From Deroplatys truncata (taxonomy: Eukaryota > Arthropoda > Insecta > Mantodea > Mantidae), in NCBI GenBank assembly GCA_030765065.1, contig CM060982.1, forward strand, positions 13,699,630 to 13,763,629: a DNA stretch of 64,000 bases, given 5' to 3'. Each line of letters opens with the position of its first letter. Positions within the stretch are counted from its first letter, which is position 1. The notes under the pieces were generated by a model. The model was not told where the DNA came from. It did no database searches and was given only the letters and a program-made list of their open reading frames with translations. Both the position numbers and the translations under genes were made by a program. Positions 5,836-46,409 of the stretch are shown here, piece by piece.

Positions 5836-5920
5836 CTTATACATTTAGTTTGGACCTGACAATAAAATTCCAAGAAAGTTGCAAAGCCTGTTTTACTGTA
5901 TGATTCATTCGAAAGCTTAT

Positions 5921-6215
5921 GTCATCCTCCATGGTGTAATGGTTCCCATGCTAGCCTCTAGTTCCTGAGGTTGCAGGTTCAAACCCGGAAGGCCAATGGA
6001 TTTTTTCGGGCATAAAAATCCTTAGCATTGCTTTCTTCGGAAGGGAAGTAAAGCCGGTGGTCCTGTGTTGTAGATTTATGGCATGTAAAAGAATCTCAAG
6101 CCTGATTAAGTGGCCTCTGAGCAAAATTACCGGTTTTTCACACCCAATATAGAATGGGACAGTAAGGACCACAGGAGTTAAAGGGCTTAAATAAAGCTCA
6201 ATTTAATTTTAAGAA
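5921..6215 (+). mobile_element. SINE family S1, tRNA Asp/Glu/Val-like head
   Basis: The head GTCATCCTCCATGGTGTAAT contains an A-box-like TGGTGTAATGG, and GGTTCAAACCC is a clear B box about 45 bp on. The body has the family words ttttttcgggca, ctgagcaaaattaccggt and gaatgggacagtaaggac, and the tail is aagctcaatttaattttaa. Other copies lie at 13618-13898 and, inverted, at 46121-46409. Transcription by pol III from the internal promoter is expected for the family. Confidence 0.8.
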
Positions 6216-6309: not shown

Positions 6310-7037
6310 ACTTTCTGTAGCAGTATCTGTAATAGGTATAGGAAGTATTCCATCTCGCTAAAACATTAAATATATGTTTTGAGGCCCCCTGAATAAATAA
6401 AAAAGAGAAAACATGTGCATCGATGTGTGTGTGTATCTACAGCATAAATAAAAACAAAATCTAGGATAAACTGCTACTTAAGCTCGGTATCTTCCAGAGA
6501 TTCAACACCAAGAATTTCAAGAATATCTCCCACCATAACCCTGCATTTCAATGGAACATTTTTATTTTCTGAAGAATTGTTCTAACATTGTGTTAAAATA
6601 GGATATATTTCAGATACTTACATGACAAATTAAATGTGCATCCTGAATTTGCTGTGAATGGCTTGCTAAGAATGAATTTTGTATAATTTTAATGTAACTG
6701 ATAAACCATAAGAGGTAGATAAAAACTTACGATACAACAAATGTAGATGTCTTTAAAACTTACAATTTATTTCAAATAAAGTTTTTGTTGCATCACCCAT
6801 TTTGGAGGTATCTGCTGTTATTCTTTTAATTATTCAATATTTTCTCAGTTTTTGAAATGGCTTCCCATTCATTTGTTTCTCATGATTGCATGGAAACAGT
6901 ATGGAATTTTAAGGCTAACATATAGTGACAAGTTCTTAAACATTTGACTATTGCTGTTCCCTTTGTATCTATAACGAAATGTGTAATGTAGCTATTTCTG
7001 CAGGTTTATCTCAATTAAAATGTAGTAGATAGAAAAA
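6310..7037 (+). repeat. R family copy R4
   Basis: Starts with actttctgtag...aggaagtattcc (the palindromic end, diverged) and follows the R blocks in order: tgttttgaggccccctgaat, ctcggtatcttccagaga, aaccataagaggtagat, and gtagctatttctgcaggttt. It lacks the last bases of the family and runs straight into R5 in the opposite orientation. It has no coding capacity. Confidence 0.75.
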
Positions 7038-7855
7038 ATCTAATGTGATACTTTCACATGACTTTCTCTACCCTCTATCTATATTAATGGTTATACTAAC
7101 TATTCTTATTAAAGCTTATTTTTCTATCTACTACATCTTAATCTAAATAAACCTTTGCAAAAATAGCTACATTACACATTTTGTTATAGATACAAAGAGA
7201 ACATGTATAGTCATGTTTAATAAATGGATACTATATACCCAGGTTTAAGCGGAAATTTTGAGTATGATTTAAAAAAAATTATTGCTTTAAAGTTCCACGA
7301 ACTCAAATATATATAAAAGAATAAAAATCAGCCTTAAGTAAAACATCAGCCTTAAAATTCGACACTGTTTCCATGACATTGCAAGATACAATTAAAATCA
7401 ATGGGACTTTAAAAGAATGATAGGTACTGAACAACTCGAACTGTTAATAACGGATATCTCAGAAATGGCTTATGCCACAGAAAACATTTTAAGTGAATTG
7501 TGTGTTTAAAGATCTACGTTTTTTTTGCGTGGTATGTGTACGTCTATCGCTAATGTTTACCGATTATACAAGATTATACAAAACTCCTTCCAAATGAAGA
7601 GGACTTCACAGGATATTTACAGAAAATTCAAGATATACATTTTATTTGTCATGTAAATATCTTTAATATATGATATTTTAATCAAAATCATTACAGCCAT
7701 TTTTTAGAACATCAAAATTTCAAAAAATATTCTCTGTAAATGGTAATTTAGGGTGGGGGGATGGTGTTGGAAAAATTTGCGTCGCATCTTTGGTAAATAT
7801 TTTACCTAAATACCAAGTTGGGTATTTATCCAACATTTCATCTTTGAGATATGTG

Positions 7856-7889
<34 letters not shown>

Positions 7890-8022
7890 GACATGTTTCC
7901 ACAAATGCTTTATTTGGATTCAGCGGACCTCAAAACTTGTATTTCCGATAAATCTCAGTATGGAATTTTGGGGTGGAATGCAATACTTCCTGATCTTACT
8001 ATAGTTAGTAGAGAAAGTAAAA
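7038..8022 (-). repeat. R family copy R5, near full length with (CA)n tract
   Basis: Runs from atctaatgtgatactttcac through CATGACTTTCTCTACCC to ttagtagagaaagtaaaa, so both family ends are present in about 985 bp. It contains a (CA)n microsatellite at about 7858-7886, at the same internal place as in the copies at 45126 and 23611. With R4 it forms an inverted pair joined at the non-palindromic ends. Confidence 0.8.
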
Positions 8023-12394: not shown

Positions 12395-14280
12395 CGATAT
12401 AAACGGGGCCACTATTTCAGAAAGTATTCTTGTAGCTAGAGCACTTTCAAAGCCCTCAAAATCAACACTGACTTCTGCATCAACATTGCCAAGTCGGTTA
12501 CTGGGAAGATCATAAAGTGAAATCACCAGCAAAACCGTCGACCTCAACCAATAAGACTGGTAAGGCGGTAATATATAATGCATCGCTGAAAAAGTTAAGG
12601 ACCATCTACGACAAAACTGGCTTCCTGAAGGAAAACGAGAAGTCTGTACCCGGAACATCCAAGGGGAACAAAAGTCCACGATCATCTCGGAGATCCTCTT
12701 CTCGAGAATATTCTGGGAAGGATTCAGATCGGCAATCTACATCTTCACTGATCTCTACTTTCATCTCGAACGAATTTTTCTATTGTAAAAGGGTCCTCCC
12801 CTGTGGAGAAGATGGAGCATGGGATTTTTTTCCCACAAGGCCAGAATGACAGTGAAAAAGGGGTAGGATATATCCTGCGTTAAAGGTGTTAGCCCGACAT
12901 CAAAGAACAAGGGTAAATTGATTCCACCACCGCTATCCCCAATGCCATAGATTCTTACAATTGAGAACTTATCCCCAAATAATTACTATGGCTATCCTAC
13001 AATGGAATATAGATTGAATTAGAACACATTGACCAGAGTTTGAACGTTTGTTAAAGTATGAGGCTTTGTTCGTATGTTTGCAAGAGACTAAACTCCGTCG
13101 GCAAGACAGCTTTCAAATTAGACAGTACGCCATAGCACGGCATGATCTTACAATGGAAGAAGGTATTCCTACGCACGGCGGCACCATGATGCTCATCAGA
13201 GATGATATATTCATGGGATCTGTTTCCATAATTGCCATCTCAGTTGCTGTGAGGATTAAACTGCCATCCATCGATTTACCGTTTGTAATATTTATCTGCC
13301 TCCAGCTGACCTCTCGCCCAGTGAATTAGAAGATCTAGTTTCCCATTACCATCTTTTCTGTTGGTAGGAGTCGTCAATGCCATCACCTTTTTGGGGCTCA
13401 CCTCAGGCTTGGGCGAGAGACAAATTAATCGCCGATTTTTTGATCATTTATAACTAGCTCTTCTGAACACCAGAAAGCCTATATTTCTTTCAGACTCCAA
13501 CAATTTTTCACATCTTGATATTGCAGTTTGTTCACTACAGTTAGCAGTTTCCTTATAATAGAATGTCATCTTTCATTTACACTCAAGTGACCACTTTCTA
13601 TGTCTTATTAGTCTCTTGTCGTCATCTATGGTGTAGTGGTTACCATGCTAGCCTCTAGTTCCCTAGGTTGCGGGTTCAAACCCAGTGGAGGGCGATTGAT
13701 TTTTTCGGGTGAAAAAATCATTAGCATGGCTTCCTTTGGAAGGGAAGCAAACCAGTGGTAGATTTATCGCACATAAAACAACCTCAAGCCTGATAAAGGG
13801 GTCTCTGAGCAAAATTACCGGTCTAACTCGCCCAGTATAGAATGGGATGCTAAGGACTATAGCAGTTAAAGAGCGTCCATAAATAAAACTCAATTCAATT
13901 ATTAGTCTCTTTAACACACGATATATGTTCCATACGTTTGCCTGGATGGCACTTGGATCAAGCCAACTGGAACCTTTACTCCCATTTGGCTGTTTAATTA
14001 CAATGAGAATGACTCTGTGAATGTTTTAGCCAAACATCTCGCACAGACGATTCTTCCTACTGCTGAGCTATCTATTCCTCGGTCGACTGCCCACCCCCAT
14101 CGATTTCAGGTCCCGTTGTGGATGGATGAATGTTGAAAGGCCATTCGTGCTCGCAGGTATGCTCTTAGGATTTTCCAGCATCGCCCTACCCTGGATAACC
14201 TGACCCAGTACAAGAAAATGCGTGTGCCAAGTCAAGGCAAATTATTAAGGATAGCAAAAGGACATAATGGAGAAAGCGTT
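12395..14280 (+). mobile_element. LINE A (I/Jockey group): end of ORF1 and endonuclease part
   Basis: The 5' part (12395-12960) reads as the Lys/Ser-rich end of an ORF1 protein (AKPSTSTNKTGKAVIYNASL, KSPRSSRRSSSREYSGKDSD) and is broken. ORF2 starts near 12988 with MAILQWN and LFVCLQETKLRRQDSFQIRQ, the first endonuclease block (Glu in QET). Further on are WGSPQAWARDKLIADF and, past the SINE, words matching the basic linker (KAIRARRYALRIFQHRPTLD). Several frame changes and stops break it. An S1 SINE sits at 13618-13898, and the LTR element cuts it at 14281. It resumes at 25627. Confidence 0.8.
13618..13898 (+). mobile_element. SINE family S1 inside LINE A endonuclease
   Basis: Starts GTCGTCATCTATGGTGTAGT, has B box GGTTCAAACCC and the S1 body words. 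A perfect 13-bp target duplication, TTATTAGTCTCTT, flanks it at 13605-13617 and 13899-13911. The LINE A coding homology reads on across the duplication, so the SINE is younger than LINE A. Confidence 0.9.
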
Positions 14281-15315
14281 TGAGGCAGTATTTTGATACC
14301 TGAATAATTTAAATTGTATTTTATATAAAAGTAAATTCAATAACAGCCCGCCTTGAAATAATATGTAAGTATTAATTATTTAAATTGTATGTAACAGTCA
14401 TTGCAAATGCTTATTTTTATTGTAAACATGTTTTATTAATATTATGTGAATACATTAAATACTTTAATAATACAAGAGCTGTGAGAATAATAAGTTTTAA
14501 GTTTCTAATAATGAGGTAACCTTGTAGCAATAGTGAGTTAAAGAGTTTGAAAAGTTACCAGTCATGATTATATCAACGGTAAGGTAAATTCAGTAACAGT
14601 TTAAAATTAGCCAATCAATAGCAAGGAAAAAGTTTAAATAAAATGCAGATATTCTATTGGACTAGGATTAGCCAATCAGAGACTTGAAATACTGAAGCTT
14701 ACAGGTTTAACCGTTGAAATCTTACTCTGTTGCTGGCAAGTCTTGGTAGTGAACAGATGTAAGATGTGTTCTCTACGAGTGAATCGTAAAATACGTATAT
14801 GCGCTAAGTGAAAGTATTGAAGATTCTCACAGTTCTTAAAAACTGTAGTTCTTTATAAAAATGTGCAAGAATTAATAAAGGAAGTGAATTTTAAAAAGTT
14901 AAATTCTGTGATGTCTACATTCTTGTTGCACCGCACCCTTAATAAGAGAAACACATTTCTAAAGTAAGACTGATGCAGCCGAGGCAATATAGAAGCAGTG
15001 TTAATAACAAAGTTAAATATTATAGTGTAAAACTTGGAGTGTAATAAAAAAAAACATCTTGAAATCAGCCTCTCATACGTAACAGCATATTGCGCAATAA
15101 CAGTAACTATTATGTAATCAACAAAATTCAAACCGATGCCCAAAGCGTGTTTTTAGGAACTCCTTAAAAACAACTAAATAAATATTACGTAAAACACAAT
15201 TACGTAAGCATACGATCTTCAAGTTTAAACAATATGCAACAATACATCTTCAAGTTTAAAATTACGTAAACAAATTAACATCTTCAAGTTAAACATTGCA
15301 TAATAAACTACTTCA
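14281..15315 (+). repeat. 5' LTR of the Gypsy-type element
   Basis: 1,035 bp direct repeat, TGAGGCAGTATTTT at its start and AATAAACTACTTCA at its end. It should hold the promoter and polyadenylation signals, as LTRs of the family do. I did not map them. Confidence 0.85.
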
Positions 15316-21240: not shown

Positions 21241-21634
21241 GGGGAAAGCAATGTAATTTAAAAATGTAAAATACTATTTAAAATAATATCTTTACTAAAT
21301 GTAGAAAATTGTCAATAAGAAAGGAAAGTTTAGATAAAAAGAAGTAACAAAAATCTATTGTTAGTAAGAAATATTAAAATATTTAAGAAACAAATTGTAA
21401 AGAAAGGGTAACAAGTGTAAATATGTCTAACTTTATGTAAAATGTATAGCATATAAACTGCTTAATAGTGAACGGGCAAACTTCGCTCAGATCATTAAGC
21501 TTATACCAGGTCATTAACCTTGGAAAGTGTCAAACAAGTGAATATGAAGTGTTCTGCTATACACGAGTGTAGTGAAAAACCAAAAGTGAGAAAAGTGACA
21601 GTGAAAGATAGGAAGTGCAATAATAAAAGTTATT

Positions 21635-21977
21635 TTAAAATAAAGAGAGTTGAGGGTTGTTACACTACATCACTATAATATTCTTACTTGAACGCGTTTC
21701 GGGAGACGGTTTGTTCCCATCGTCAGCATGTCCTCATCTGATTTTGCCGGTCATCGTCTGGGGGATGTGTGTGGTTAGTGGTGTTCTCTGGTGCTGGGCT
21801 GATGAACCTCCAAAGGCTGTTGGGTGGCGGCAGTTCGAAATTCATTAGGTGATTCCTGTGTTTGACAATATGTATTTTTTCCCAGATGTCCAATTCATTA
21901 CTGCTGTTGATCGGTTTTAAGAGTTTTATGTTTGGAGTGATATCATGGTTTGAAGACCAGAAATGATGTGCTACTGC
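21635..21977 (-). repeat. Left inverted arm of the Penelope-like element
   Basis: Starts ttaaaataaagagagttgag and is the reverse complement of 22981-23320. The arms are nearly identical by eye, which suggests a recent event. The right arm contains the end of the GIY-YIG reading frame, so this arm carries that frame on the minus strand. Confidence 0.85.
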
Positions 21978-22980
21978 TCTTCCCAAGCATACCAAAAGAA
22001 GAATTATTACCACTCCTAGAAAATTGGATATTAAACAATGGCACACCTAGAGCACAAACAGAAGATTACCTAAAACTAACAAAATTATGTCTAGACCAAA
22101 ATTTCTTTTCATTCCATCACAAAATCTTTAAACAAACCTCAGGCCTAACTATGGGAAACCCCCTTTCACCATTTTTAGCAGAACTATATATGAGCCATTT
22201 TGAATGCCATATTACTAAATCTTTCCCACATCTATTCAAAACCTGGTATAGGTATGTAGATGATATTTTTGCTATTGTTCCAAAAAAACTTTCAGAAGAT
22301 GCTTTGAAATTATAAATTTACAAAAAAGATCTATTAAATTCACAATAGAAAAAGACGAAAATGGCCAATTACCTTACCTAGACATCAGGATCATCAGAAA
22401 TAATGCACACAACAAACTAATGTTCGGCATTTACAGAAAACCAACGCACACAGAAAATTATATTAAAAACAATAGCTACAATCCTACAAGCCACAAACAT
22501 GCAATTTTAAATAGTATTACAAACAGGTTAGTACATATACCAATGGAGAAAGAGGACTACCAGAAAGAATACCAACACATTATCAACATAGCCACTATGA
22601 ATGGATACCAGAAAAAAACAAAAGATAAGAAGATAAAAAGGTTTGAAAGACAGAAATACATCCAACAAATGACTACGTTACTCAGACAACAAAAACCACA
22701 AGCATATAGAAAATTCACTTATCACCCTTGGACACATCATAAATTTCAAAGGATTTTAAAAAAATACAACATCACCCTGTCTCCACAGAATAACCACAAC
22801 ATACAGAAACTACTATGCAACAGAACAAAAGATCCTATCCCCAACGATAAATCAGGTGGTATATATCAAATTGATTGTAATGAATGTAACCTGGTATATA
22901 TAGGAAGAACAAAAAGAAATCTTGAAATAAGACTTAAAGAGCATATGAGATGCATTTACCAAAAGCAGCCAGATAAATCA

Positions 22981-23320
22981 GCAGTAGCACATCATTTCTG
23001 GTCTTCAAACCATGATATCACTCCAAACATAAAACTCTTAAATTCGATCAACAGCAGTAATGAATTGGACATCTGGGAAAAAATACATATTGTCAAACAC
23101 AGGAATCACCTAATGAATTTTGAACTGCCGCCACCCAACAGCCTTTGGAGGTTCATCAGCCCAGCACCAGAGAACACTAACCACACACATCCCCCAGACG
23201 ATGACTGGCAAAATCAGATGAGGACATGCTGACGATGGGAACAAACCGTCTCCCGAAACGCGTTCAAGTAAGAATATTATAGTGATGTAGTGTAACAACC
23301 CTCAACTCTCTTTATTTTAA
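22981..23320 (+). repeat. Right arm of the Penelope-like element
   Basis: Ends ctcaactctctttattttaa. It encodes the last part of the endonuclease domain, which closes ...ENTNHTHPPDDDWQNQMRTC-stop. Confidence 0.85.
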
Positions 23321-23475
23321 ATTATGACACATCACTGGTACTAGCTTCTAAATTTTCAAAATTAGTCAATAAAAGTTATGTTTCTTTCTTTCAGAGACTT
23401 TTAGAAAATATTTAAAAAATTAAAAGAACAAAACAAAAAGGAATAAATTTTAAATATTTCTAAAAGGGGGCAATT

Positions 23476-25626
23476 TGAGGCAGTATTTTAATACCTGAAT
23501 AATTTAAATTGTATTTTATATAAAAGTAAATTCAATAACAGCCCGCCTTAAAACAATATGCAAGTAATAATTATTTAAATTGTATGTAACAGTCATTGCA
23601 TATGCTTATTACTTTCTCTACTACATATAGTAAGTAGGGGAAGTATTGTATTCCATCCAAAAATTTGATACCGAGATTTCACCGGAAATACATGTTTTGA
23701 GATCCCCTGAATCCAAAAAAAAAGCATTTTTGGAAACGTGTTTGTGTGTGTGTCTGTCTGTGAACAGCATAACTCAGAAACGAAGTCTGATAAACACCAA
23801 ACTTGGTATTTAGGTTCAGTATCTTCCAGAGATGCGACACAAAGGTTTTCAAGAAAATCCCCCCACCCCCAGAGTACCCTTTACATGGAACATTTTTCGA
23901 AAATTTTAATTTTCTCAAAAATGGCTCTAACGATTTTGATTAAAATATCATATGTTTAAGATATTTTCATGACAAATAAAATGTATATCTTGAATTTTCT
24001 GGGAATGTCTCCAAAAGTATTCTTCATTGTGAACGACTTTTGGTAAACTGGTAAACCATAAGAGATAGACAAAATTTTACTACACAAAAGATGTAGATCG
24101 CGTTAAAATACACAATTTATGCCATATACATTTTTGTTGTTCAGTGAACCATTTTCGAGATATTGCTTGTTATTCCCTTAAATGTTTCAATACTTATTTT
24201 CTCAAATGGGAATTCGTTATTAATTTTTTTTGTCTTGGATATGCAAAGAGTATTAATCTGTGGAAAAGGGAATAGTGCTGCACCTAGCAACCAGCTATTA
24301 AGAGATGTATATGTGCTTAAAGGCTACTGTATTTCGATACTGCCCTTGTAAATATATATTCCCCTTGCATCTACAAGAAAATTAGCAATAAGATAGAGTC
24401 TGCAAATGTTTATCTCGATTAACATGAAGTAGATGGAGAATAAGCGTTTGTAAAAATAGTTTGTACAAGAGTAGAGAAAGTCATGTGAGTGTAACACATC
24501 AGAGTTTTTGTCCTGGTAATGCAAAGAGAATGGAATACTCCACATAGCAACCAGCTCTTAAAATATTTGACTATCGCTTAAAGCCTACCAATTTCCCTTG
24601 CATCTACAAGAAAATTAGCAATAAGATTAACATCTCGATTAACATGAAGCATATGGAGAATAAGCGTTTGTAAAAATAGTTTGTACAAGAGTAGAGAAAG
24701 TCATGTGAGTGTAACACATCAGATTTTTTTTATTGCAAACATGTTTTATTAATGTTAAGTGAATACATTATATACTTTAATAATGCAAGAGCTGTGAGAA
24801 TAATAAGTTTTAAGCTTCTAATAATGAGGTAACCTTGTAGCAATAATGAGTTAGAGTGTTTGAAAAGTTACCAGTCATGATTATATCAATGGTAAGGTAA
24901 ATTCAGTAACAGTTTAAAATTAGCCAATCAATAGCAAGGAAAAAGTTTAAGTAAAATGCAGATATTCTATTGGACTAGAATTAGCCAATCAGAGACTTGA
25001 AACACCGAGGCTTACAGGTTTGACCGTTGAAGGTTGTTCAGTCTCTGGCAAGCCTTGGTAGTGAACAGATATAAGATGTGTTCTCTACAAGTGAATCGTA
25101 AAATATGTATACGCGCTAAGTGAAAGTATCGAAGATTCTCACAGTTCTTAAAAAGTGTAGTTCTTTATAAAAATGTGCAAGAATTAATAAAGGAAGTGAA
25201 TTTTAAAAAGTTAAATTCTGTGATGTCTACATTCTTGTTGCACCGCACCCTTAATAAGAGAAACACGTTTCTAAAGTAAGACTGACGCAGCCGAGGCAAT
25301 ATAGAAGCAGTGTTAATAACAAAGTTAAATATTATAGTGTAAAACTTGGAGTGTAATAAAAAAAAACACATCTTGAAATCGGCTTCTCATATGTAACAGC
25401 ATATTGTGCAATAACAGTAACTATTACGTAATCAAAATTCAAACCGACGCCCAAAGCATGTTTTTAGGAACTCCTTAAAAACAACTAAATAAATATTACG
25501 TAAAACACAGTTATGTAAGCATACGAACTTCAAGTTTAAACAATATGCAACAATACATCTTCAAGTTTAAAATTGCGTACACAAATTAACATCTTCAAGT
25601 TAAACATTGCGTAATAAACAACTTCA
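23476..25626 (+). repeat. 3' LTR of the Gypsy-type element, split by R7
   Basis: Begins TGAGGCAGTATTTT at 23476, is interrupted after ...tgcttatt (23610) by the R7 copy, resumes with tttattgcaaacatgtttta near 24727 and ends in aacaacttca at 25626. Without R7 its length is about that of the 5' LTR. Confidence 0.85.
23611..24722 (+). mobile_element. R family copy R7, reference copy (Helentron/DINE-1-like, non-autonomous)
   Basis: Seen: about 1.1 kb inserted in a T run of the LTR (tgcttattTTTattg in the 5' LTR). It starts with ACTTTCTCTACTACATATAG...AGGGGAAGT, a palindrome, and ends GTAGAGAAAGTCATGTGAGT...CATCAGA, so ACTTTCTCTAC is repeated inverted near both ends. It holds a TG-rich (CA)n tract near 23745 and no coding frame. 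Its right end is duplicated (24355-24505 and 24590-24722). Known: Helitron2/Helentron-type and DINE-1 elements show sub-terminal inverted repeats, a terminal hairpin, an internal microsatellite and T-T insertion. Inference: R is such an element. A TIR-type MITE is the alternative. Confidence 0.6.
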
Positions 25627-28397: not shown

Positions 28398-29672
28398 TTT
28401 TTATATTCATCTTTATCTCTGGACTTTCATGATTTTATATTGATCTTTTTATCTCTGGCCTTTGCCATGATTTTATATTGATGTTTTTATCTCTGGCCTT
28501 TGCCATGATTTTATATTGATCTTTTTATCTCTGGCCTTTGCCATGATTTTATATTCATCTTTATCTCTGGCCTTTGCCATGATTTTATATTCATCTTTAT
28601 CTCTGGCCTTTGCCATGATTTTATATTGATCTTTATCTCTGGCCTTTGCCATGATTTTATATTGATCTTTATCTCTGGCCTTTGCCATGATTTTATATTC
28701 ATCTTTATCTCTGGCCTTTGCCATGATTTTATATTCATCTTTATCTCTGGCCTTTGCCATGATTTTATATTGATCTTTATCTCTGGCCTTTGCCATGATT
28801 TTATATTCATCTTTATCTCTGGCCTTTGCCATGATTTTATATTCATCTTTATCTCTGGCCTTTGCCATGATTTTATATTGATCTTTATCTCTGGCCTTTG
28901 CCATGATTTTATATTCATCTTTATCTCTGGCCTTTGCCATGATTTTATATTCATCTTTATCTCTGGCCTTTGCCATGATTTTATATTGATCTTTATCTCT
29001 GGCCTTTGCCATGATTTTATATTCATTTTTATCTCTGGCCTTTGCCATGATTTTATATTCATTTTTATCTCTGGCCTTTGCCATGATTTTATATTCATCT
29101 TTATCTCTGGCCTTTGCCATGATTTTATATTGATCTTTATCTCTGGCCTTTGCCATGATTTTATATTGATTTTTATCTCTGGCCTTTGCCATGATTTTAT
29201 ATTGATTTTTATCTCTGGCCTTTGCCATGATTTTATATTCATTTTTATCTCTGGCCTTTGCCATGATTTTATATTCATTTTTATCTCTGGCCTTTGCCAT
29301 GATTTTATATTCATTTTTATCTCTGGCCTTTGCCATGATTTTATATTCATTTTTATCTCTGGCCTTTGCCATGATTTTATATTGATCTTATCTCTGGCCT
29401 TTGCCATGATTTTATATTCATCTTTATCTCTGGCCTTTGCCATGATTTTATATTCATCTTTATCTCTGGCCTTTGCCATGATTTTATATTGATTTTTATC
29501 TCTGGCCTTTGCCATGATTTTATATTGATTTTTATCTCTGGCCTTTGCCATGATTTTATATTCATCTTTATCTCTGGCCTTTGCCATGATTTTATATTGA
29601 TCTTTATCTCTGGCCTTTGCCATGATTTTATATTGATCTTTATCTCTGACCTTTGCCATGATCTGTTTTTCT
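28398..29672 (+). repeat. 36-bp minisatellite, about 35 copies, in the LINE A 3' end
   Basis: The unit is atctttatctctggcctttg ccatgattttatatt(c/g), 36 bp or exactly 12 codons. Because 36 is divisible by three and the unit has no stop in some frames, both strands show long open frames (plus: ISGLCHDFIFIF; minus: MAKARDKDEYKI). These are by-products, not genes. The first few units carry two extra T's. Variation is patterned: minus-strand variants Q-E-E (KDQ, KDE, KDE) repeat as a 108-bp higher-order unit in the left and middle part. The array lies between the end of ORF2 and the LINE 3' terminus, so it grew inside LINE A. Confidence 0.95.
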
Positions 29673-44189: not shown

Positions 44190-45125
44190 ATAGTGACACA
44201 AAATGGCGGCTCTGGCTTCAGCGAAGCAGGTAGCATTGCTGCCTTGATTCGGCTTGCCATTGGCGGGCTCGACACACGGCTGATTGCGGTTTATGACCCT
44301 CCAGACCATCGCTTCTACGAAGCAGACTACCGTACCTTACTGAACCTACACCCTGTGATTTGCATTGCAGGAGACCTCAACGCGAAACACGGGCACTGGC
44401 ACAGCCCACGATTAACCAGAAAGGTCGCGGGCTCTACCGCCTCATCAGCGGAGATCCGAGCCTAATCGCGCAGGGGCTGAGAGGGCCTAAGTTTCATCCA
44501 GCCCGCGGCAGGTCGGATATTCTCGATATCATGATCACCATAAACATTCCATTCCATCTAGACCTCTCGGCGATAAACGAGCTGGACTCCGACCATGACC
44601 CAGTCCTGGTGGATTCCAACGTAGAATGCCAGCACTGGTCAGCCCAGACTGGATAAACGAGGTCGACTGGGATGTAGCGGTCCTAGAACTGAACCGATCC
44701 GTCGACCCACGGCCACGCATCGATTCTATCGATGCGCTGGAAGCTGCAGCGGCAGCGGCGGATTTCTCCCAACAGATCCTGAATGCGGTACGTGCACACA
44801 CTCACCGCATCCCGTTTGACATTCCTAACCCGAGAACCATTCCCAACGAACTCCAACCGCTGCTAAAAGCCAAGGCAACTGTACGGAAGCTATGGCAGCG
44901 TTTCTGCCATCTCAGGATTGGGGCAGTATACCAGCGGTTCAAAACCCTGGCAAAGCGCCTGCTCCGTGTGCACAGAAAGGTAGCCTGGGAAAACACGATG
45001 CAGAATGTTAACTTACAGGAAAAGAAACCATGGCGGATTATCAAATCCTGGATAAAACCCAGTACCAGCACTCCCTACATGGCATTCACGGAAGACTCGC
45101 TTTGAGCCTCACGATTAAAAAAAAA

Positions 45126-46120
45126 ATCTGATGTGTTACACTCACATGACTTTCTCTACTCTTGTACAATCTATTTTTACAAACGCCTATTCTCCATATG
45201 CTTCATGTTAATCGAGATATCGAGATGTCAATCTTATTGGTAATTTTCTTGTAGATGCAAGGGAATATGGTAGCTTTTAAGCGATAGTCAAATATTTTAA
45301 CGCTGGTTGCTATGTGGAGCATTCCATTCTCTTTGCATGTCCAGGACATAAAATTATTGGTAATTTTCTTTTAGATGCAAGGGAAATATGGTAGCTTTTA
45401 AGCGATAGTCAAATATTTTAACGGTGGTTGCTATGTGGCGCATTCCATTCTCTTTGCATGTCCAGAACATAAAAAAAATGAATAACGAATTTGAGAAAAA
45501 GTATAAGTATTGTAAAATTTAAGGAAATAACAAGCAATATCTCGAAAACGGTTCACTCAACAAAAGAAATGTATATGACATAAGTTGTGTATTTTAACGC
45601 GATCTACATTTTTTGTGTAGTAAAATTTTGTCTATCTCTTATGGTTTACCAGTTATGCAAAAGTCGTTCACAATGAAGAATACTTTTGGAGACATTCCCA
45701 GGAAATTCAAGATATACATTTTATTTGTCATAAAAATATCTTAAACATATGATATTTTAATCAAAATCGTTAGAGCCATTTTTGAGAAAATTAAAATTTT
45801 CGAAAAATCTTCCATGTAAAGGGTAGTCTGGGGTGGGGGGATTTTCTTGAAAACCTTCGTGTCGCATCTCTGGAAGATACTAAACCTAAATACCAAGTTT
45901 GGTGCTTATCCGATTGTTCGTTTTTGAGTTATGTTCACACACACACAGACACACACACAGACACACACACACACAGACACACACACGGACATGTTTCTAA
46001 AAATGCTTTTTTTGGATTCAGGAGGTCTCAAAACGTGTATTTCCGGTGAAATCTCGGTATCGCATTTTTGGGTGGAATGCAATACTTTCCCTACTTACTA
46101 TACGTAGTAGAGAAAGTAAA
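45126..46120 (-). repeat. R family copy R12, full length
   Basis: From atctgatgtgttacactcac to cgtagtagagaaagtaaa, about 995 bp, with a (CA)n/(CAGA) tract at 45937-45985. It sits in the T-rich tail of the S1 SINE at 46121-46409 (read on the minus strand), because the SINE target duplication lies outside R12. It is among the best preserved copies. Confidence 0.85.
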
Positions 46121-46409
46121 AATTGAGTTTTATTTATGGATGCTCTTTAACTGCTATGGTTCTTAGCGTCCCATTCTATACTGAGCGTGAAAGATCGGTA
46201 ATTTTGCTTAGAGGCCTCTTTATCAGGCTTGAGGTTATTTTACGTACCGTAAATCTACGACACGGGACCACCGGCTTTACTTCCCTTCCGAAGGAAGCCA
46301 CGCTAAGGATTTTTACGTCCGAAAAAATCCATCGCCCTCCGCCGGGTTTGAACCCGCGACGTCGGGAACTAGATGCTAGCATGATAACCACTACACCACA
46401 GAGGACGAC
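46121..46409 (-). mobile_element. SINE family S1 in LINE B
   Basis: Minus-strand head GTCGTCCTCTGTGGTGTAGT with B box GGTTCAAACCC and the S1 body. The duplication GCCTCACGAT lies at 46410-46419 and at 45106-45115, beyond the R12 copy that later entered its tail. Confidence 0.9.

Follow-up and report, generated by a model that had tools for sequence, protein, structure and literature searches.

What kind of mobile element occupies the right-hand member of a pair of direct repeats in the 64,000-nt stretch of Deroplatys truncata DNA analysed here (the window), and what moves it? A sequence-only reading had described a high-copy non-coding family, R, with Helentron/DINE-1-like structure, and had predicted that an autonomous partner exists elsewhere. 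Our follow-up strongly favors this view: we put at about 94% the probability that this genome also houses a Helentron, a rolling-circle transposon bearing an endonuclease, and that R is its non-autonomous partner, a HINE. Comparison of the sequences shows ends and a 5′ 724 bp held in common, insertion after TTWTT, a gain of about five T, a target word left uncopied, and, at different sites, composites with two 3′ ends.

The window element and its relatives

A mobile non-coding element is indeed present at the interval first proposed, with inverted ACTTTCTCTAC ends, an end hairpin and a GT/CA tract; as claimed, it has no coding frame, the longest stop-free frame on both strands being 90 codons. 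On the forward strand, the target word TTATT (23606..23610) is followed by a complete R element, here counted without its T run (23611..24503), and the start reads TTATT|ACTTTCTCTACTACATATAGTA. The 5′ end (23611..23644) is an imperfect hairpin containing the subterminal inverted repeat ACTTTCTCTAC (23611-23621); by folding energy, 2 of 200 shuffles fold equally well. The internal CA tract of the earlier reading is the GT tract at 23743..23762. At the inner 3′ end (24471..24503), GTAGAGAAAGT is accompanied by a short stem-loop and CATCAGA. Beyond it lies a second 3′ tail, from a related element (24504..24723), which closes with a second 3′ end (24691-24723). The finish reads GTAGAGAAAGTCATGTGAGTGTAACACATCAGA and then eight T, of which the first five (24724..24728) can be ascribed to the element's own 3′ terminus on the evidence of empty sites and of copies that follow TTATT. 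The copy in the window is therefore composite: another 3′ tail has been added to a full-length R (23611-24503). The 5′ boundary drawn earlier, 23611, is exact, but the 3′ boundary, placed at 24722, lies at 24728 when the five terminal T are counted.

ACTTTCTCTAC with at most one mismatch is found at 18 sites in the window (8 exact), against 1.34 expected, and none of 100 shuffles reaches 18. Each end of R has it, as does the 3′ end of the partner, with the at least 11 identical bp of the Helentron/HINE family rule. The palindrome reported for one end, ATGTG...CACAT at the 3′ end, is visible by eye, but its folding energy is not significant (21 of 200 shuffles fold equally well), and the 5′ end forms a hairpin too. 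R and the partner both have a 5-bp 3′ stem; for the partner's 3′ end, 107 of 200 shuffles match the folding energy.

Two direct repeats of ~1 kb are present, and the element sits in a T run within one of them (14279-15315 versus 23474-25626 less the insert, 94–96% identical); following the first reading, we take the two repeats as LTRs. The left repeat preserves the empty site, TTATT^TTTA (14411..14419, forward strand), in the context GCTTATT^TTTATTG; the right repeat is filled and reads GCTTATT-[element]-TTTTTTTTATTG, a net gain of 5 T. Insertion in T runs is thereby borne out. Together with the flanks of further copies (below), the comparison of filled and empty sites that had been proposed shows that insertion leaves the target word uncopied. 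Inside the element bounded by the direct repeats there is also an inverted repeat of ~345 bp, 98% identical between its arms (21634-21978 and 22980-23321).

A BLAST search of the element against the window gives ~14–15 separate places, mostly fragments, at 68–90% identity. The 5′ end is kept at only 3 places and the 3′ end at 8 (thresholds, ≤11 mismatches of 38 and ≤9 of 33), with 0 of either in 20 block shuffles. The earlier count of at least eleven copies is thus right for related pieces, and too high for complete elements. On the reverse strand lie a second well-kept relative, which follows TTTTT and has stacked 3′ tails (45122..46117), and an older relative with both ends, likewise after TTTTT (7033..8018). 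Other repeats of the window include a tandem array with a unit of ~36 bp, 94–97% identical (28399-29662), and a ~290-bp repeat present three times (5920-6211, 13617-13904, 46120-46409), once starting beside the R 5′ end at 46117, which is possibly another element family.

Across the 4.29-Gb genome, the 33-bp 5′ end of R occurs 262,839 times with at most two mismatches, and the reversed pattern 0 times; the 38-bp 5′ end has 3,780 exact matches. At 0.6–0.9 kb each, R would make up an estimated 4–5% of the genome, a figure that counts stacked and truncated units as copies. An alignment search yielded 3,281 candidates; among the best 40, the main matches are mostly to R 1-899, at 91–96% identity, and four, the window copy among them, cover the whole 1,112-base query including the second 3′ tail. 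Viral contigs gave 0 matches to the exact 33-bp 5′ end.

A coding partner with shared ends

The genome that houses R also contains the autonomous partner foreseen by the first reading, an element that encodes Rep, helicase and endonuclease and has the two ends in common with R. A profile search for Helitron_like_N, in which 150 of 291 candidates were scored, gave at least 18 matches in stop-free frames of 2,108–2,543 aa among the matches listed. One partner copy that we read through extends 2,324 aa from stop to stop, and its two halves match the tegument-like protease domain Herpes_teg_N, DUF6570, Helitron_like_N, PIF1 and, at the C terminus, Exo_endo_phos_2. The Rep (Helitron_like_N, 98.5 bits) and PIF1 helicase (97 bits) matches exceed their cut-offs; Exo_endo_phos_2, an AP-type endonuclease, matches over the whole profile with E 1.3e-5 and 25.5 bits, below the Pfam cut-off of 27.4, and the putative domain carries an SDH motif. 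The Rep motifs are VEFQMRGSPHEH and YIIKY. In the Rep motif (V/I)ExQxRG(S/L)(P/L)HxH, an S flanked by G and P is described as a Helentron sign (PMC4067079), and this S is present in VEFQMRGSPHEH. The second sign given in that source, (F/Y)(w/l/y/k)R, reads YQR in the partner, which fits at two of the three positions. Among the coding relatives examined, all of them Rep-helicase elements, none with a DDE transposase and matching ends came up, the finding that would have refuted the first reading. Because two partner copies are 99.5% identical over 8.9 kb, with open frames, recent activity is suggested.

Two further features of these frames can be mentioned. In the partner ORF (L029), a tract of 63-bp (21-aa) repeats, kept in frame, lies within residues ~300–600 and is variable from copy to copy; five frame lengths (2261, 2324, 2345, 2387, 2408) differ by multiples of 21, and others do not. 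Separately, L009-L012 score higher for Helitron_like_N than the Helentron copies and have one stop each, and are perhaps another, decaying rolling-circle family.

In all 11 partner copies sampled at the 5′ side, every one taken from the 18 long frames, R 1-724 lies directly upstream of the partner body at ~90–92% identity (10 directly, 1 with further R in the junction). The sample for the 3′ side also numbered 11, five of them in common with the 5′ set and some with broken frames. The same kind of 3′ end is seen in 11 of 11, and in six a second, R-type 3′ end follows 219–232 bp further on. The last 55 bases of this outer end match R at 53–55 positions in five of the six copies (those measured). 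A third 3′ end in L113 matches R at 51, the second 3′ end of L111 is of another type, and L109 has further R tails nearby. R's 3′ end is indeed unlike the partner's inner end, where 42 of 60 bases are alike, below the likeness found at the outer end; the outer tail, present in 6 of 11 copies, resolves this difference. This pattern of matching implies that R corresponds to the longer Helentron form. R is not a simple deletion of the partner's short form, since it differs from the partner's inner 3′ end and from the partner body.

R-type 5′ ends upstream of partner bodies follow TT in 25 of 25 cases, eight of which share the inherited junction CATTTT, such that the 25 are not independent insertions. 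At L037-L045, one, two or more R-type 5′ units are stacked before the partner body; L045 has a single unit, after CTTATT. We also considered whether the partner might start at CTATATTGCGC rather than at an R 5′ end. Copy C8 seemed to be such a case, but it holds further R in a T-run junction.

Could the partner, and R with it, belong instead to another group of rolling-circle elements, Helitron2 or the canonical Helitrons? All of these groups have Rep and PIF1 helicase, and Helitron2 elements likewise have asymmetric inverted ends and palindromes (PMC4067079). We nonetheless regard this as very unlikely, given the C-terminal endonuclease domain (a sub-cut-off match) with its SDH motif, the S in the Rep motif, a target that is T-rich and not the canonical A^T, and an N-terminal tegument-like domain of a sort reported from Helentrons (PMC9741609).

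The target word and the terminal T residues

Sampling 28 R copies out of the 40 best matches, we find that the left flank ends in TT in all 28 and the right flank starts with T in 27; target duplication in these copies does not exceed that of shuffled pairs. Position −6 is T in just 6 of 28, indicating that the left motif is about five bases and not any long T run. Among the 3,780 exact 5′ ends genome-wide, 3,632 follow TT, 2,713 TTTTT, and 336 TTATT, the class of the window copy.

Empty sites were sought with the joined flanks of 18 of the 28 copies, 40 candidates being scored per search; L055, L060 and L065 were left out, as were seven others (the window copy, or copies with R sequence in their flanks). 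Junction-spanning sites were obtained for 6 of the 18. Relatives of a single copy took up nearly all of one search, and for the other 12 copies the lack of sites does not count as a negative result. The gain is +5 in 6 of 6 sites fetched for L006 (at least 39 sites), +6 at the one site of L049, +4 to +6 in 7 of 8 fetched for L050 (at least 40 sites), the eighth being altered, and +5 in 2 of 2 for L054; L058 (5 sites) and L059 (1 site) give +4, in alignments that are just 73–78% identical. An R nested in a partner copy shows +5 relative to relatives with T8, and some relatives have T7.

A net gain of about five bases makes a 5-bp target duplication a serious alternative. R would then move by cut and paste as a TIR/MITE element, always duplicating 5 bp of target, mostly TTTTT, a reading with which the inverted ends also agree. 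Copies that follow TTATT distinguish a duplicated target from a T5 tail. We assembled 22 such copies in which a 3′ end was present. Five came from the 28 above and 17 from 20 further ones fetched (the remaining three had no 3′ end within the stretch and were excluded). On the right side, 19 read TTTTT, 1 reads TTATT and 2 read otherwise. The single TTATT case, L054, with TTATT on both sides, fits duplication better than a T5 tail, and two of the 22 fit neither. Given these counts, the best reading is that the element brings the T5 with it, and the duplication reading is largely refuted. Moreover, the ends of R are asymmetric, with the 3′ copy of the inverted repeat ~22 bases inside, and are common to Rep-helicase elements. 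We therefore hold a TIR/MITE origin to be highly improbable. On the flank evidence, the target looks like TTWTT^, and the T5 seems to belong to the terminus of the element itself. A SINE-like retroposon, with the T run being its poly-A seen on the other strand, would also be non-coding, very abundant and next to a homopolymer, but on the poly-A strand the run would sit at the 5′ end, the 28 copies have no long target duplications, and the ends are shared with a DNA element, making the chance of this negligible.

The Helentron-like interpretation of the sequence-only reading is supported in two respects, a coding partner with shared ends and a target without duplication. To that reading we would add that the 5′ end forms a hairpin as well, that the copy is composite, and that the element appears to carry a T5 tail, which is open to confusion with a 5-bp duplication.

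Stacked 3′ tails and the biology of the family

Some R and some partner copies terminate in two 3′ ends. The exact 33-base junction of two such ends occurs 4,213 times genome-wide, and several of the 100 places listed form rows ~231–232 bp apart. Such rows, for example at C1:24690187-24690683 and C1:43803535-43804030, are satellite-like arrays in which each unit carries the transposon's 3′ end. Composite units are found at different flanks (L001, L002, L103, and also partner copies, for which 12 bases of flank were seen), from which it seems that the pair of 3′ ends has moved together, the first stop having been passed. L003 and L004, which lie in or beside other R sequence, are weaker cases. 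The second tail begins just after a T run like that inside R, and we infer that a nested insertion, followed by passing of the inner stop, explains it.

A scheme can be proposed for R as a HINE mobilized by the Helentron. The Helentron protein would cut at the 5′ end, just past the T run (TTTTT^ACTTTC), and a single strand would be peeled off until a stop after the 3′ stem-loop and T5 (CATCAGATTTTT^). The peeled strand would then be joined into a TTWTT^ target, and cut site, stop site and target would all be one common five-base word. Stops may sometimes be passed, giving elements with stacked 3′ tails, the tails being supplied by nested insertion into the element's own T run. Some bacterial HUH elements choose their targets by matching their own terminus. 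It is possible, though on our estimate somewhat less than an even chance, that TTTTT (with TTATT tolerated in the target) serves as cut, stop and target word, such that the Helentron picks targets in this same way, and that frequent passing of stops helped R to reach at least a quarter million 5′ ends.

The kind of element described here is already known. Helentrons and HINEs, including DINE-1/INE-1 (Thomas, Vadnagara and Pritham 2014, PMC4067079), similarly have inverted subterminal repeats, a microsatellite, a T-rich target without duplication, Ts at their ends, and a Rep-helicase-endonuclease partner with common ends that is outnumbered by non-autonomous copies; their 3′ palindrome may have a counterpart in the 5-bp stem visible in R. 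Our comparison of R with Drosophila DINE-1 concerns likeness in organization, not core sequences. By the account of PMC4067079, the side on which the flanking Ts lie, and how many there are, is unclear or variable; here, by contrast, about five T are gained, on the 3′ side, at a TTWTT target. R also differs from the elements of that account in its 262,839 5′ ends, and in being related to a long partner form with an extra 3′ tail rather than arising by simple deletion of a short one. Cg_HINE of the Pacific oyster (PMC7492417) likewise comprises non-autonomous Helentrons with T-rich targets, no duplication and internal tandem repeats; its repeats are central, whereas the repeated units here include the 3′ end (~231 bp) or the 5′ part.

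Some published Helentrons carry a tegument-like deubiquitinase (VTD) domain (PMC9741609), and they resemble the partner in that this kind of domain is part of a Rep-helicase-endonuclease protein; the partner adds the 21-aa repeat tract, and its own tegument-like domain is a predicted one. No literature was found that pairs Helentron with the name Herpes_teg_N, the tegument-like domain being in print under another name in PMC9741609, and none of the titles found on Helentrons in Orthoptera or Helitrons in a bush-cricket concerned the R family. For an endonuclease that reads T runs, a parallel is provided by human LINE-1, whose endonuclease nicks at TTTTT/AA (PMC8565326).

What is notable about R is its copy number and its sharper insertion rule. 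How flanking Ts are divided between element and host, a question left open by the defining paper (PMC4067079), can be settled by counting where 5′ ends number in the hundreds of thousands, as in this genome; our samples favor a T5 tail, with TTWTT^ as the target. Copies with stacked 3′ tails, in turn, offer a natural series for how rolling-circle transposons stop.
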